Origin: Thermoanaerobaculia bacterium
GTDB lineage: Bacteria; Acidobacteriota; Thermoanaerobaculia; Multivoradales; Multivoraceae
Length of the DNA: 64,000 nucleotides
Assembly: GCA_022826745.1 (NCBI GenBank)
Contig: JAJDUI010000008.1
Span: 62,001-126,000, forward strand
Direction of reading: 5' to 3'
Of the stretch, positions 216-55,293 are shown one piece after another. The stretch's first letter is position 1. The number at the start of each line of letters is the position of its first letter. The notes beneath the pieces were generated by a model, which was not told where the DNA came from, did no database searches, and saw nothing but the letters and a program-made list of their open reading frames with translations. Both the position numbers and the translations under genes were made by a program.

Positions 216-1527
<1,312 letters not shown>

Positions 1528-1531
<4 letters not shown>

Positions 1532-2367
1532 GCCGTCGACGCAAACGCTCGTCCCGCGACGGCGCCATCGCCGCCGCGTTCAAGACCTGCGCGAAGGAAC
1601 GCCGCTCCGCCTTCGTCCCGTTCCTCGTCGCCGGCGACCCATCCCTCGAGGCCACGCCGGACCTGCTGCGCGCCCTCGTCTCCGGCGGCGCCGACGTGAT
1701 CGAACTCGGCGTCGCCTTCAGCGACCCGATCGCCGACGGCCCGACGATCCAGCGCGCCTCGCATCGGGCGCTGGCGGCCGGCTCCTCGCTCAGCGCCGTG
1801 CTCGGCATCGTCGAGCGCCACCGGGAGGAACTCGGCGTCCCGATCGTCCTCTTCACCTACTACAACCCGGTCCACGCCCGAGGCGTCGAGAACTTCGCCG
1901 CCCAGGCAGCCGACAGCGGCGTCGACGGCGTCCTCTGCGTCGACCTGCCGCCCGATGAGGGCCTGCGCGAGCTGCAGCCGGCGCTCGAGGAGCGGGGCGT
2001 CGACTCGATCTACCTGATCGCAGCCACCAGCACCCGCGAGCGGATCGATCGCGCCGCCGCGGCGTCGAACGGCTTCGTCTACTACACCGCCCGCTCGGAC
2101 GTGACCGGCGAGCGGGAGGATCTGATTCCCACTCTGGCCCGCGAAGTGAAGCGCGTGCGCCGCCGGGTACGCCTGCCGGTCGCCGTCGGCTTCGGCATCT
2201 CGACTCCCGAGCAGGTCGAGGAAGTGGCCCAGGTCGCTCACGGCGTCGTCGTCGGCAGTTCCCTGGTGCGCCTGGTCGAGGAGAATTCCGCCGAAGCGGA
2301 CCTGGCCGCGCGCCTTGAACGGCGTGTTCGGGATTTGACCGCTCCGCTGGGTGCGCGGGTCCTCTGA
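1528..2367 (+). CDS. trpA: Tryptophan synthase alpha chain
   Basis: The 279-aa alpha subunit cleaves indole-3-glycerol phosphate and passes indole to TrpB. The catalytic glutamate is E59 and the catalytic aspartate D70, in [17 protein letters not shown]. The phosphate-binding GFGIS is near residue 225. The start ATG overlaps the trpB stop. The last residues (LGARVL) and the TGA stop are read from a palindromic repeat that begins at 2347, and TGA falls at the edge of the hairpin loop. The original C-terminus was therefore probably replaced or slightly extended by the repeat. Confidence 0.97.
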
Positions 2368-2485
2368 CCCGCCCCGGCCGGAGCCGCGAAGCGGCGCAGG
2401 CCGGAAAGTGCGGCCGCCGGCTTCGCCGGCGACGATGCCATCGGCCGCCTGCGGCGGCAGCGGGTCAGAAGACCCGCGCACCCAG
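2347..2485 (+). repeat. Composite palindromic element after trpA
   Basis: Two copies of the GGTGCGCGGGTC type hairpin face each other (2347-2372 and 2460-2485). Between them are smaller GC-rich palindromes such as GCCGCGAAGCGGC and CCGCCGGCTTCGCCGG. The left copy overlaps the trpA stop. The whole can fold as a large inverted repeat and might end trp transcription, although no U tract follows. Confidence 0.85.
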
Positions 2486-10293: not shown

Positions 10294-13160
10294 GCGACCG
10301 CAACCAGATGAACCAGACTCTGATCGAAACCGCGCAGGCGATCGCCGCGGAGCGGCCGCCGGCCGAAGTCGAGGCCGCCGCGGCCGCACGCGTGCGGCAG
10401 GCGCTGACCGCCGCCGCCGGCGATGCCGCCGGAGCCGATGCGCCCGACGCCGGCGTCGATGCGAACGCGACGCTGACCTCATGCGCCGACTACCAGGCGC
10501 GGATGCCGGCCCTGGTCGCCGGCACGCTGCCGGAGGCCCAGTGCCTCCTGGTGGAGGACCACACCCGCGAGTGCATCCCGTGCCGCAAGCACCTGCAGGC
10601 GGTGCGGGCCGGCCGCGCGGTGTCCGACGTTGCCGGGCCGGCGGCGCCGGCGCGGGTAGGCCGCTACTACGCGGCCGCCGCGGCAATGGTCGGTGTGGCC
10701 GTGGCGGGCGTGTGGATCAGCCAGCGCGTGCTCCTGCCGCCCCAGGACGGCATCGTGCAGGTTCAGAGTGTCGACGGCCGGATGTTCGCGGCCGGCGACG
10801 ACCGCGGCGCGGACCTCGTTCCGCTTGGCCCCGGCGACGCGGTCGATGGCGGTGTTGCGGTCCGCACCGGCGCCGGCAGCCGCGCGGTGCTCGAACTTGG
10901 CGATGGCTCCCGGGTCGAGGCCGCCGGACTGACCACGTTCCGCGTCGACGCCCGGCGCAGCGGCCATCGCGTGCGCGTCGACCGCGGCAGCGTGATCGTC
11001 CAGGCCGCCCAGCAGGAGAACGGTTCGCTGATCGTGTCGACCGAGGAGATGCTGGTGGCGGTCAAGGGCACCATCTTCGCCGTCACGCACGGCGTCAAGG
11101 GGTCGCGCGTGTCGGTGATCGAGGGGGAGGTCGAGGTCGAGAAGGGCCGCGAGCGCCACAGTCTGCTGGCCGGCGACCAGTTCCGCAGCCGCCCGACCCT
11201 GGTGGCGATGACCCTGCAGGAGGAAGTCGGCTGGAGCCAGGACGCCGACCACTACCTCGCGGTGCTCGAGGAGTTCAGGTCGCTGCGCAGCGAACTGAAC
11301 CAGTTGATGGAGGCGGCGCCGCCGCGCCACTCGACCCGCCTGCTCGACCTGATGCCGGCCGACACGAAGGTCTATATGGCGATGCCGAACGCGCCGGCCA
11401 CGTTGAGCGACCTGTTCGAGCTCGTGCGGTCGCGCGTCGGCACGAGCGACCTGTTCGCCGAGTGGTGGACGGAGTTCGAAGCCTCCGGCGCGGTCGGGAC
11501 GATCGACGAAGTGATCGTGTTGCTGGGCGAACTCGGGGACACGATGGGCGACGAGACGGTCATCGCGCTCTCCGGCGGCATCGCCGACAACACGGCCCGT
11601 CCGCTTCTCGTCACGGAAGTCTCTGACGCCGCCGCCCTGCGCGAGGCGCTCGAGGAACACCTGGAGGGACTCGGCGACGCGATGGGCGAGGAGGGCACGC
11701 CGGTCATCGTCGAGGATCTCGATGCGGCGGCCGAGTCGGACGGCGCGCTCCTGGTCTGGATCGCCGACGATCTCGCCGCGGCCTCGCCTTCGCTCGCCGC
11801 GCTTCGGACCGTGGCGGCGAACCGGGACGGCGCCGCCAACCCGTTCGTGGGCTCGCGGCTGCACGGCCGGCTTGCGGAGCGATACGCCGCCGGCGCGGAG
11901 CTGCTGGCCGCGGTCGAACTGGCGGCCGTGGTGGCCGAACTGGGGGACAGCGAGGACGCGGACTCCAACGGCTTCGCGTTCAGCGGGCTCGATCACGTCG
12001 AGGATCTGGTCGCTTCCCGGACCCAGGACGGCGACCGGGCGAACCTCACCGCGACCCTGAGCTTCGACGGCGAGCGGTCCGGGATGGTCTCCTGGCTGTC
12101 CGAGCCGGGAACCAACGGCGCCCTCGACTTCTTCTCTCCGGACGCGTCCTTCGTCGCCGCTGGCGTGATCGAGGATCCGCTGACGATCTACGACGAGTTC
12201 CTGGAGTTCCTCGCCGGGCTGGGCGGGGAGATGGACGGGCCGCCGGCCGAGATCGAGAGCGAACTCGGCATGTCGATTCGCGAGGACTTCCTGGCGCACC
12301 TGGGTGGCGAGTACGCCGCCGGCATCGACGGTCCGGTCCTGCCTTCGCCGGCGTGGAAGGCGGTTGCGTCCGTCTACGATGCGGAGGCGCTGCAGAGTTC
12401 GATCGAGACCCTCGCCCGGAAGGCGAACGACCGGCTGGCGGACGAGGGCGTGGGCGCGGCGATCGCGATCGGCGAGCAGGAGTCGGGCGGCCGCACGGTC
12501 TATCGTCTCTCGATCGAGATCGACGACGCGGACGGCGAAGAGTCGGGCGACGACGAGGACGGCGAGTCGCTCGAGGGAGTGCTCGAGAGCCTGGTGGAAA
12601 CTCCCGAGATCTTCTACACGTACTTTGATGGGTACATGGTGAGCGCGTCCAGCGTGGCAACGATCGACACGGCGATCCGCTATCGCGGCAGCGGCGCCTC
12701 GCTGACCTCGAGCCAGCAGTTTCTCGATCTGCTGCCCGAGAACGGCTACGCGGACTTCTCCGCGATGGTCTACAACCGCCTCGCCGAGACGGCCAGCGAA
12801 CTCTTCGACCTGCTGCCGACGGAGGTCGTGGGCGACGACCAGCAGGCCGTTGTCCAGGCGATCGAGGAGTCCATCACCAGCCAGGGGGCGTCCCTCTACA
12901 CGGTGTACGCGGGCCGCAGCGAGATCGTCGTGACCTCCAGCGGACCGAGTCTGCTGGCCTTCGCCGGATTGGGGCCGCTGCTCGGAATCCCCACTCTCCT
13001 GGAGGGTCTGGACGCGATGGATGAAGCGGAGGAGCCCGAGCCGGAGGGCGAGCCGGCGTCCGCGGTGGACGATCAGGTCGCCGAGATTCGGCCGCCTGCG
13101 GCGGAAGCCGGCGGGGACGCCGGCGCACCCAGTGCCCGGGTCCTGAGGCCGGCCGCCTGA
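10290..13160 (+). CDS. Large membrane anti-sigma/FecR-domain protein
   Basis: The protein has 956 aa. Order: helical N-terminus; a zinc-finger-like anti-sigma motif ([13 protein letters not shown], near residue 91); one transmembrane helix ([15 protein letters not shown], about 130-146); and a FecR domain (about 152-300: [34 protein letters not shown]). A region of about 600 residues beginning [16 protein letters not shown] resembles DUF3352-type extracytoplasmic domains. It should hold the sigma factor and sense something outside the membrane. The C-terminal [11 protein letters not shown] is translated from a palindromic repeat (13107-13133). Its length is far above a normal FecR (about 300 aa). 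Function is inferred from the first three domains only. Confidence 0.8.
13107..13133 (-). repeat. Palindromic element in the 3' end of the anti-sigma gene
   Basis: Read on the minus strand it is ACTGGGTGCGC followed by stem GCCGGCG, loop TCCC, stem CGCCGGC. It is the same as the copy at 17795 and is translated in frame as GGDAGAPS. Confidence 0.85.
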
Positions 13161-16775: not shown

Positions 16776-16870
16776 ACTGGGTGCGCGGGTCTTCTGACCC
16801 GCCGCCGCCGCAGGCGTGTGACCACGGGTCTTCTGACCCGTGGAAGACAACGCGCCGGCCGCAGGCTGGC
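16776..16870 (+). repeat. Composite palindromic element after the ABC operon
   Basis: ACTGGGTGCGC plus stem GCGGGTC, loop TTCT, stem GACCCGC is followed by a second GGGTC-TTCT-GACCC hairpin (16825-16840). A degenerate GCGCCGGCC unit comes near 16852. The order head, hairpin, spacer GAAGACAACGCGCCGGCC is shared with the copy inside hemCD. Confidence 0.85.
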
Positions 16871-17794: not shown

Positions 17795-17841
17795 CACTGG
17801 GTGCGCCGGCGTCCCCGCCGGCATCCGGCGCGAAGCGCCGG
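17795..17841 (+). repeat. Palindromic element upstream of the PQQ-propeller gene
   Basis: ACTGGGTGCGC is followed by stem GCCGGCG, loop TCCC, stem CGCCGGC, then a second hairpin CCGGCGC-GAA-GCGCCGG. Confidence 0.9.
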
Positions 17842-17861
17842 TTCTCCGGACACTCCACGGC

Positions 17862-19205: not shown

Positions 19206-19219
19206 CGCGGTCCTCTGCC

Positions 19220-19250
19220 ACTGGGTGCGCCGGCCTTCTGGCCGGCATCC
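19220..19250 (+). repeat. Palindromic element after the PQQ-propeller gene
   Basis: ACTGGGTGCGC with stem CCGGCC, loop TTCT, stem GGCCGG. Bases 19224-19248 are identical to the copy inside trpB. Confidence 0.9.
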
Positions 19251-19275
19251 GGCCGAACAGCCTCAGGGGCCGGTG

Positions 19276-25910: not shown

Positions 25911-25953
25911 GAGTCGTGGAGGATACGGGCTCGCCGCTTCGCGTCGTCGCGCG

Positions 25954-25983
25954 GATGCCGGCGAGGGCGCCGGCGCACCCAGT
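25954..25983 (-). repeat. Palindromic element between methyltransferase and GPP34 genes
   Basis: On the minus strand it is ACTGGGTGCGC followed by stem GCCGGCG, loop CCCT, stem CGCCGGC. A partner palindrome (CGCCGCTTCGCG) lies at about 25932. Confidence 0.85.
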
Positions 25984-25991
25984 GCGGAGAT

Positions 25992-35374: not shown

Positions 35375-35506
35375 CCGGGTGCGCCGCGGTCCACTGGGTG
35401 CGCCGGCGCCCCCGCCGGCTGGGTGCGCGGGTCTTCTGACCCGCTGCCGCCGGAGGCGGCCCGGAGACGCGCCGCGAAGCGGCGACCGCACCTCCGTGCG
35501 CCACCT
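35375..35506 (+). repeat. Cluster of three palindromic elements upstream of glcD
   Basis: A degenerate head GGGTGCGCCGCGG (about 35377) is followed by ACTGGGTGCGC with stem GCCGGCG, loop CCCC, stem CGCCGGC (35393-35419). CTGGGTGCGC then continues with stem GCGGGTC, loop TTCT, stem GACCCGC (35419-35445), overlapping the previous unit by one base. Smaller palindromes (GCCGCCGGAGGCGGC; CGCCGCGAAGCGGCG) follow. Two different stem types lie side by side here. Confidence 0.9.
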
Positions 35507-49930: not shown

Positions 49931-50107
49931 GTCCGGGTCGGCGTGCAGGGGGAGGGTCCCAGCGGGCTGGAGGCAAGCGACGGGCGACGCCCTTTCATAG
50001 GCCGATGCCCGACCGGAGCGCCGCCGACCGAAGCGAGCGCAGACCTCCCCTTTAGTCAGAGAGCGCGAGCGGCCGATGGGACCCTCCCCCTGCACGCCGA
50101 CCCGGAC
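49931..50107. mobile_element. 177-base element with 31-base perfect terminal inverted repeats
   Basis: The arms 49931-49961 and 50077-50107 are perfect reverse complements (left arm begins GTCCGGGTCGGCGTGCAGGG). The 115 bases between are GC-rich and contain no gene. Size and form match a non-autonomous MITE. No obvious target duplication is seen. It splits the hem cluster between hemH and hemA. A structured RNA or transcription attenuator is the alternative. Confidence 0.6.
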
Positions 50108-53436: not shown

Positions 53437-55293
53437 TCAGTCCCCCTTGGGGTCGGCGCCCACTTCCTCGAGCCACAGGCGTTCGATGCCGGCGGCGGTC
53501 GGTTCCTGTGCGCACTTCACGTTGCCGGCTCCGGCGCTTCGGAGCGCCGCGGCTGTGGCGGCTCCGATCGCCCAGCAGCTTCCCGGCCAGTCCAGGCCGG
53601 ACGCTGCGAAGGCGGAAACCGCCGATGGAGCGGTGAAGAGTACGCGGGCGCGGGCCGCTTGCCAACCTTGCGGCCAGTCGAGCTCGTCGTTCGGATGCAC
53701 GGTGTAGGCCGGCCAGGCCGTGACCTGGCGGCCCGCCGCCTGGAGCGCCTCGACGAGTGGCGCTCCGCCGCGGGCGGAATGCGGCACGAACAATGGGCAA
53801 CGCGGGTCGAGCACCCGAGCCGCGTAGCGGGCGAACTCCTCGCCGCCGGAGGCCCGCGCGGCCAGGTTCGGCGGCACGCCGGCCGCGAGCAGCGCGCGCG
53901 CCGTGCCTTCGCCCAGCGCGCACCATGGCAGCCGGCCCCAGACCGGCTCGCGCGCGGCGCGCTCCGCCACCACCCGGGCGGCGTTCGGCGACGAGACGAG
54001 CAGCCAGGGCCACTGGCGTCGCGGCCCGTCCAGGTCGATGCGGTCGGCCGGCCAGGGGGTATCGAAGACCTCGACGGTGGTCGCCGGCAGAGCCGCGACC
54101 CGGATGGCCGGGTCGAGCCTCCTGGTCAGCCGACGGACAGTCTCTGGACCGGAAGTCACGATCAGGTCCGGCGTCTCCGGACTGGGTGCGCGGGTCTTCT
54201 GACCCGCAGAGAACAGCGCGCCGGCCGTCAGGCCGGCACCGAACTCCGCCAGACCCCGCTCAATCCGCTCCGCCAACGCGTCAAGGTCGATGCTCCCGGC
54301 ACGGTCAGCGATCGAGACCGCAGAGTGGACGGTACGCGGCGTCTCACCGACCGAGGCAGGTTCCCGCCAGTCGTCGGCCGCGATCAGGGCGTGGACCTCG
54401 TGCAGTACCGGCCCTTCGAGGCCGGCGGCGCCCGCGTCCGCCCAGGCTCCGAACGGTCGGAGACAGCCACCGCCGAGCCGGCCAAGCAGGGAGCGCTCCG
54501 CGAAGGCCGCGGCGCGGCTCGGAGGGTGGTCGAGCGCCGCCATCGCCGCGTGTCCGTCGAGCCGGCCGCCAAGCAGGATCTGGACCGCCAGGGCACCCTG
54601 TCCGGGCGCGCAGGGCCAGGAGCGAAGGTCCAGCCGGAAACCCCGGATAGCGGCGGCCGGAGCTTCGAGCTCGCCGCTTCGTGCCAGGCGCAGGACGCCC
54701 GCCTCCGCCGCCAGCAGGGCCTCGATCGCACCGCTCTGAAGCCACTCCAGCCGTCGCCCCACCGAGCCGCGGACGGCGCAGCAGACGAGGTCCGGCCGCA
54801 GAGCCAGCGCGCCGGCCTGCCGGCGGGGAGACGATGTGCCCAGGCGGGTGCCCGCGGGCAGCGACGCGAACGCTTCGCCAGCGGGTCTGGCGCGTGCCTC
54901 CAGGGCGTCGTCGCGGTGATCGAGCAGCTCCTCGAGCGTCGGCGCTCCTTCGCTCGCCTCGTTCGCTTCAGAATCCGGCGCGAACAGCAACAGATCGAAC
55001 GGCCGCTCCCGCTCCGGCACCGCCGCGATCACCAGGTCGGGCTCGTCCTCGACCGGCAGGTCCTTCAGCGAGTGGACGACCAGGTCCACGGAGCCGTCGC
55101 GCAGGGCCGCGGTCAGTTCGCCCGTGAACACGCCCTTGGCCTGGGCGAAGCTGCCGCCGAGGCTGCGGTCTCCCTGGGAGGACATGGCTCGCACCACCGT
55201 GTCCACGCCGAGTTCGCCGAGCCGCCGGGCGACCAGGTCGGCCTGGATCCGCGCCAGTGGCGTCGCCCTGGTGCCGATGACGATCGGGGCCAT
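53437..55293 (-). CDS. hemCD: Fused hydroxymethylbilane synthase and uroporphyrinogen III synthase
   Basis: The protein has 618 aa. Residues 1-350 are HemC: VHSLKDLP near 74, LGTSSPRRQ at 151-159, and the dipyrromethane-cofactor cysteine C277 in GGGCLRPFGAW. Residues about 376-618 are HemD, with a divergent sequence (LIVTSGPETV, WPWLLVSSPNAARVV, ARVLFTAPSAVSAF), which is normal for that family. Residues 352-371, which join the domains, are encoded exactly by a 60-base dispersed palindromic element (54181-54240). HemC also has an insertion near 105-145 compared with the usual length. It is first in the hem cluster. Confidence 0.9.
   Translation of the reverse strand: MAPIVIGTRATPLARIQADLVARRLGELGVDTVVRAMSSQGDRSLGGSFAQAKGVFTGELTAALRDGSVDLVVHSLKDLPVEDEPDLVIAAVPERERPFDLLLFAPDSEANEASEGAPTLEELLDHRDDALEARARPAGEAFASLPAGTRLGTSSPRRQAGALALRPDLVCCAVRGSVGRRLEWLQSGAIEALLAAEAGVLRLARSGELEAPAAAIRGFRLDLRSWPCAPGQGALAVQILLGGRLDGHAAMAALDHPPSRAAAFAERSLLGRLGGGCLRPFGAWADAGAAGLEGPVLHEVHALIAADDWREPASVGETPRTVHSAVSIADRAGSIDLDALAERIERGLAEFGAGLTAGALFSAGQKTRAPSPETPDLIVTSGPETVRRLTRRLDPAIRVAALPATTVEVFDTPWPADRIDLDGPRRQWPWLLVSSPNAARVVAERAAREPVWGRLPWCALGEGTARALLAAGVPPNLAARASGGEEFARYAARVLDPRCPLFVPHSARGGAPLVEALQAAGRQVTAWPAYTVHPNDELDWPQGWQAARARVLFTAPSAVSAFAASGLDWPGSCWAIGAATAAALRSAGAGNVKCAQEPTAAGIERLWLEEVGADPKGD
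54181..54240 (-). repeat. Palindromic element forming the HemC-HemD linker
   Basis: On the plus strand: ACTGGGTGCGC, stem GCGGGTC, loop TTCT, stem GACCCGC, spacer AGAGAACAGC, then GCGCCGGCC-GTCA-GGCCGGC. It is 60 bases, exactly 20 codons, read in frame as GAGLTAGALFSAGQKTRAPS on the minus strand. Confidence 0.9.

Follow-up and report, generated by a model that had tools for sequence, protein, structure and literature searches.

A genus-specific REP element in frame in the linker of the fused HemCD protein of a Thermoanaerobaculia bacterium

REPs have been reported inside coding regions in several species, some of them twice in one gene, and most of them, though not all, fall in the GTAG or CGTC super-families (PMC3733652). 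In Rickettsia, palindromic elements (RPEs) are carried in frame by functional proteins (noted in PMC3733652). REPs and RPEs within genes are therefore already published and the phenomenon is known. The present case adds a new lineage, a repeat head that belongs to neither the GTAG nor the CGTC super-family, and orthologous sites for which filled and empty alleles are resolved.

The DNA analysed here (the window, 64,000 nucleotides) corresponds to positions 62001-126000 of contig C31 of a draft genome of 4.39 Mb, designated G000; the genomes compared with it are numbered in the same manner. The nearest named relatives of G000 are MAGs labelled Thermoanaerobaculia, Acidobacteria, Holophagales and Candidatus Multivorans thiocomprendens, and such MAGs would largely be sponge associates. 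In a limited literature search, no paper carrying the name Candidatus Multivorans thiocomprendens was found. On the minus strand of the window, at 53437..55293, Pfam models identified hemCD, which encodes a porphobilinogen deaminase (HemC) fused to a uroporphyrinogen-III synthase (HemD) in a protein of 618 residues, with PF01379 (HemC) covering residues 4-239 and PF02602 (HemD) residues 425-602. When the window was searched against Rfam at gathering thresholds, no known RNA family was detected.

The initial annotation had placed a palindromic repeat of exactly 60 bases, in frame, between HemC and HemD, and this was confirmed by the sequence and by repeat searches. The element (54181..54240, plus strand) is a REP which is read on the minus strand as codons 352-371 of HemCD (GAGLTAGALFSAGQKTRAPS), that is, 20 codons. 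It consists of the head CTGGGTGC (54182..54189), hairpin A, GCGGGTC-TTCT-GACCCGC (54190..54207), a 12-base spacer AGAGAACAGCGC (54208..54219) and hairpin C, GCCGGCC-GTCA-GGCCGGC (GCCGGCCGTCAGGCCGGC, 54220..54237), all on the plus strand; the hairpin B of longer copies is missing here. The 26-mer formed by the head and hairpin A (CTGGGTGCGCGGGTCTTCTGACCCGC, 54182-54207) has 110 exact copies in the G000 genome and none in the reversed control, and a looser 13-base head pattern gave 238 matches against 0 in the control. Hairpin C was counted four times in 464 kb when both strands were read, and GGGTCTTCTGACCC, with at most 2 mismatches, was found 6 times in the window for 0.75 expected by shuffling.

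The same 26-mer is present, without any difference, in an intergenic copy on the plus strand (16777..16865, the outer end being approximate), in which there are further hairpin sequences and, at 16826, a second GGGTCTTCTGACCC. An identical head, TTCT loop and spacer had been proposed for these two copies. The head and hairpin A bear this out, but the spacer and hairpin C agree less exactly and the intergenic copy is longer. The match is modular and not full-length, and the hinge copy is the shorter form. Taken together with the comparisons given below, these data very probably mean that a genus-specific REP was inserted into the linker of an already fused hemCD, where it was tolerated and presumably translated, its hairpin content having been changed later in frame.

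The repeats share a common plan. The copies have in common the head CTGGGTGC and a first hairpin with a GCGGGTC or GCCGGCG stem or, in rare cases, a GCCGGCC stem. A second hairpin, of the TGCCGCCGCAGGCGGC type, is often present; there are also a spacer close to CAGGAAACGC and a third hairpin built as GCCGGCC...GGCCGGC. Units contain one to three hairpins, with a 7-bp stem and a loop of usually 4 nt, and single-hairpin units do occur. Among 20 neighbouring pairs separated by less than 250 nt in the G000 sample, 13 were inverted with their heads outward, 7 were in tandem and none had its heads inward; the close inverted pairs lie 125-196 nt apart. Head, hairpins and inverted pairs are the anatomy of REPs and REPINs. 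Exact heads number 16-340 per genome in the 21 genomes of the genus and 0-9 in 39 other genomes of the order, where the counts are near the level of the reversed control. The repeat family is confined to one genus of Thermoanaerobaculia.

Several copies were located in the window itself. An inverted pair with heads outward, of REPIN or BIME type, occupies 2347..2485, and its left REP supplies the last codons and the TGA stop (2347-2367) of a trpA-like ORF (1528-2367). REP units at 1444..1520 (plus strand) are in frame and form part of the C-terminal tail of the adjacent trpB-like ORF (212-1531). Intergenic REPs in tandem, representing both the GCCGGCG and the GCGGGTC stem, are found at 35392..35461 (plus strand), and a REP with a GCCGGCG stem lies outside any assigned gene at 17795..17846 (plus strand). 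Further copies have GCCGGCG stems (13083..13134 and 25947..25987, both minus strand) or a GCCGGCC stem (19219..19256, plus strand). The window also contains a 35-nt inverted repeat (49931-49965 and 50073-50107) whose arms are 97% complementary and separated by 107 nt, and which is unrelated to the REP head.

Besides the window, the census of G000 took in 20 stretches, each of 20 kb, and 30 short loci, which together make up part of the genome. Of the 129 copies with a hairpin that were sampled, approximately 6 are located inside coding ORFs, a fraction that is approximate because coding was called by a simple home-made codon score. The copies are thus mostly extragenic, and since a bacterial genome is mostly coding, this points to a strong removal of in-gene copies. 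Several in-ORF matches were dropped from the census, being chance partial matches without a hairpin or lying upstream of the likely true start, as in a PQQ-dehydrogenase-like ORF (L069). On contigs C5, C12, C13 and C17 of G000 the copies are clustered, often as inverted pairs every ~1-1.5 kb. The 525-kb contig C31 has few copies.

A candidate driver is present in sister species. A protein matching PF01797 well and carrying the PNHVH motif, as in RAYTs, was found in 12 of the 21 genus genomes. With the NCBIfam model NF047646 (REP_Tyr_transpos, cut-off 80 bits), the G006 protein scored 82.3 bits and three others 78-79. At 11 of 13 loci of congeners, REPs headed by CTGGGTGC adjoin the RAYT gene. 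Furthermore, the stem type of the adjacent REPs agrees with the RAYT tree, with GCGGGTC in one clade, GCCGGCG in another and GCGGACC in a third; only 4 changes of stem type are needed on this tree, which is the minimum, and none of 200 shuffles gave so low a number. The GCGGGTC stem of the hinge copy is the type which accompanies the RAYTs of G003, G017, G001, G002 and G007. In a further RAYT clade (L133 of G009 and L129 of G013), unlike the others, no REP headed by CTGGGTGC was detected beside the gene; a lone GCGGGTC hairpin occurs near the RAYT of G009.

RAYTs, which are single-strand tyrosine transposases, are generally credited with copying REPs of this sort, and sister species have RAYT genes next to the repeat described here. 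From this association, we infer that RAYTs mobilise the present family. In G000, the Pfam model and a protein search of the genome detected no RAYT, and none was detected in eight further genomes of the genus. The weak matches returned by the search in G000 were translated REPs and were discarded. The driver of the G000 repeats may have been lost, may be missing from the draft or may not be required.

In-frame insertion is not limited to HemCD. It was observed in conserved protein genes encoding HemCD, GlmM (two sites), AroDE, a DSBA-like protein and a LamG-domain protein, the DSBA-domain and LamG-domain cases being found in G000. AroDE (3-dehydroquinate dehydratase-shikimate dehydrogenase) provides the cleanest case of REP insertion. 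Between fixed motifs, the region measures exactly 71 residues in G000, G003, G001, G013 and G011 and exactly 46 residues in 15 genomes, G020 not being resolved in this comparison, and the additional 75 nt of the five genomes are a REP, in frame. In GlmM, each of the two sites has REP-filled and REP-free alleles. At the first, a whole REP is present in G000, G003, G017 and G004, tandem REPs in G013 and G011, and a short REP remnant in G007, the site being empty in G005, G009, G018 and G002. Similar variation is seen at the second site, further on, where REPs occur in both orientations and in different frames.

The hinge of HemCD was then compared across the genus. Between fixed anchors, its length ranges from 36 to 90 residues and is always in frame in the readable genomes, a condition that selection on HemD, the domain downstream, would impose. 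A REP head is recognisable in 19 of the 20 readable hinges. The 36-residue hinges (G009, G002, G004, G007 and G006) contain one REP-like hairpin and a head, and those of 46 residues (G000, G003, G017 and G001) contain hairpin C, the spacer, hairpin A and the head. GCCGGCG stems are found in hinges of 51 (G016) and 64 (G010) residues. Among the hinges of 75-76 residues, that of G013 has two GGGTCAGAAGACCC hairpins, that of G011 close variants of the GCCGGCG stem, and those of G005 and G018 both kinds. The hinges of G012 and G020, of 49 and 45 residues, have kept diverged heads, and that of G014 measures 37 residues, with no recognisable REP. The longest hinges, of 90 residues, belong to G015 and G019. 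Upstream of the REP hinge, the HemCD proteins of these two genomes (L049 and L050) show several in-frame tandem copies of ~20 residues, similar to VRVAASAPDGDGGVDLDALA, which differ in detail between the two. The hinge of G008 is unreadable because of a run of N at that place. The apparent break of hemCD in this genome was discarded for that reason, as was an apparent additional segment in the HemC of G006, also a run of N.

A REP would have entered the hemCD linker probably near the base of the genus, after which later insertions, internal deletions or REP-REP recombination would have altered its hairpin content by species, in frame wherever the hinge is readable. Only G014 offers a clean REP-free hemCD allele among the close relatives, nearly all congeners carrying some head in the hinge. 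The tree has several weak nodes and does not order the REP gains and losses. The later changes may be explained about equally well by recombination among REPs, one replacing another, and by fresh insertion. A stronger form of this explanation, in which turnover in the hinge was mainly recombination or gene conversion among dispersed REPs, also between species, together with internal deletion, and not repeated insertion by a RAYT, is a real but tentative possibility. The sister genomes G001 and G016 have different stem types at the same place, and the 57-nt hinge REP shows no difference among G000, G003 and G001, against a divergence of 5.6-12.9% in the remainder of the gene. This identity may be explained by recent transfer or homogenisation as well as by insertion; for the pair G000-G001, the conservation of the hinge element is equalled in 25 of 560 windows of the gene. 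The failure to detect a RAYT in G000 and the GlmM remnant of G007, facing a whole REP in its sister G004, point in the same direction. However, the AroDE and GlmM alleles without any REP show that the first arrival at a site is an insertion, and the match of stem types with RAYT clades also speaks against recombination as the main process. Another view of the same alleles, in which the HemCD hinge, once it contains a REP, serves as a standing dock where REPs differing in RAYT specificity repeatedly take the place of the first or are added to it, in frame, appears rather unlikely. If it were true, selfish DNA would continually rewrite the linker of a core metabolic enzyme across the genus.

The way in which an insertion into hemCD could be tolerated is suggested by the repeats and by a structural model. 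Over 78 nt, 4-5 of the 6 reading frames are free of stops in most REP copies. An AlphaFold model of HemCD, built from a 35-row alignment, had a mean pLDDT of 89.6 and a pTM of 0.89, and its main stretch below 50 pLDDT (residues 357-371) lies inside the REP-coded residues 352-371, between two confidently folded domains. The REP-coded segment thus apparently forms a flexible linker. A model of GlmM was discarded because of its mean pLDDT of 47.6. Three properties would account for the toleration of the REP, namely a length that preserved the frame, several open frames in most copies and a flexible linker. The element was initially taken as direct evidence that such a repeat can become protein. 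The frame is indeed open across species, which implies translation, but "direct" is a little strong, and on the basis of this reading-frame conservation the hinge REP is presumably translated. The predicted tryptic HemCD peptides GLAEFGAGLTAGALFSAGQK and APSPETPDLIVTSGPETVR span the REP/host junctions.

The hinge REP could also have been domesticated, its peptide or RNA hairpins having acquired a function such as slowing translation between the two domains. The persistence of heads in nearly all congeners and the identity of the element in several species would agree with this proposal, which we nevertheless consider improbable: length and peptide vary widely in the hinge, frames and orientations differ among the host proteins, one congener has no recognisable REP there, and the segment is of low confidence in the AlphaFold model. 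These features look like tolerance, and the insertion would be functionally neutral.

Two origins had been considered at first for the hinge element, namely insertion into an existing fusion or creation of the fusion. In the second case, the REP would have joined adjacent hemC and hemD genes by removing the stop and start between them. The REP does lie at the HemC/HemD junction, and G036 (L060), which belongs to a different family of the order, has hemC and hemD as two separate neighbouring ORFs that overlap, so that a fusion event did happen. HemCD is fused in every genome of the genus where it is readable. It is also fused in G021 and G023, which represent two other genera of the same family, with unrelated linkers of 46 and 42 residues located between the same anchors and containing no REP; these genomes have only 2 and 4 background head matches, and their linkers are too diverged for base-by-base alignment. 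Within the genus, G014 has a fused HemCD with no recognisable REP in the hinge, whereas G003 and G001 have the same hinge REP as G000. The relatives thus offered separate genes, fusions without the repeat and fusions with it. Since the fusion occurs without the repeat in G021 and G023, it is independent of it, and the comparison favours insertion; that the REP made the fusion is very improbable. On the terms set in the initial annotation, the unrelated linkers count against the creation of the fusion alone, and not against insertion into it. The simplest reading, which assumes a single origin of the fusion within the family, is that the fusion would be older than the repeat. Fused HemC-HemD proteins, with 32-48% identity, were also noted in Poseidoniales/Euryarchaeota MAGs (L110-L116). 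Finally, a chance resemblance of a GC-rich linker to the repeat, conceivable in a window of 69% GC with linkers of low complexity, has a negligible probability and was rejected in view of the exact 26-mers and heads, which the controls lack, and of the second hairpin, which is found in the expected order.

Insertion of a REP into an already fused hemCD has a more general bearing. The statement that selfish repeats can become protein passes from isolated cases to a comparative series, in which the same orthologous sites are seen with and without a REP in ~20 related species and in core enzymes of haem, cell-wall precursor and aromatic amino-acid synthesis. Such a series lets one measure the survival of in-gene REPs, the frames and loops that tolerate them, and whether RAYT specificity predicts arrivals. 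In addition, a fusion linker later rewritten by repeats is a caution against concluding that a repeat found at a junction made the fusion.

The family described here resembles the REP/REPIN and RAYT systems (REPtrons) by its short hairpin repeats, present in hundreds of copies, mostly intergenic, often in inverted pairs and beside RAYT genes. It differs from them by its head, CTGGGTGC, which is not of the GTAG or CGTC type, so that membership in these super-families is not claimed, by units that can have two or three ordered hairpins, by its host, Thermoanaerobaculia, and by orthologous alleles with and without a REP in several genes across ~20 species. Like MITEs, the repeats are non-coding, dispersed and, in paired form, of inverted-repeat structure, but their candidate driver is a RAYT (Y1_Tnp) and not a DDE transposase, and single-hairpin units exist. 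With the Rickettsia palindromic elements, to which they are likened by description and not by sequence, no membership being claimed, they share a palindromic structure and an in-frame position in conserved proteins that apparently tolerate them; in contrast to RPEs, they have a RAYT partner in congeners, and only ~5% of the sampled copies are in genes.
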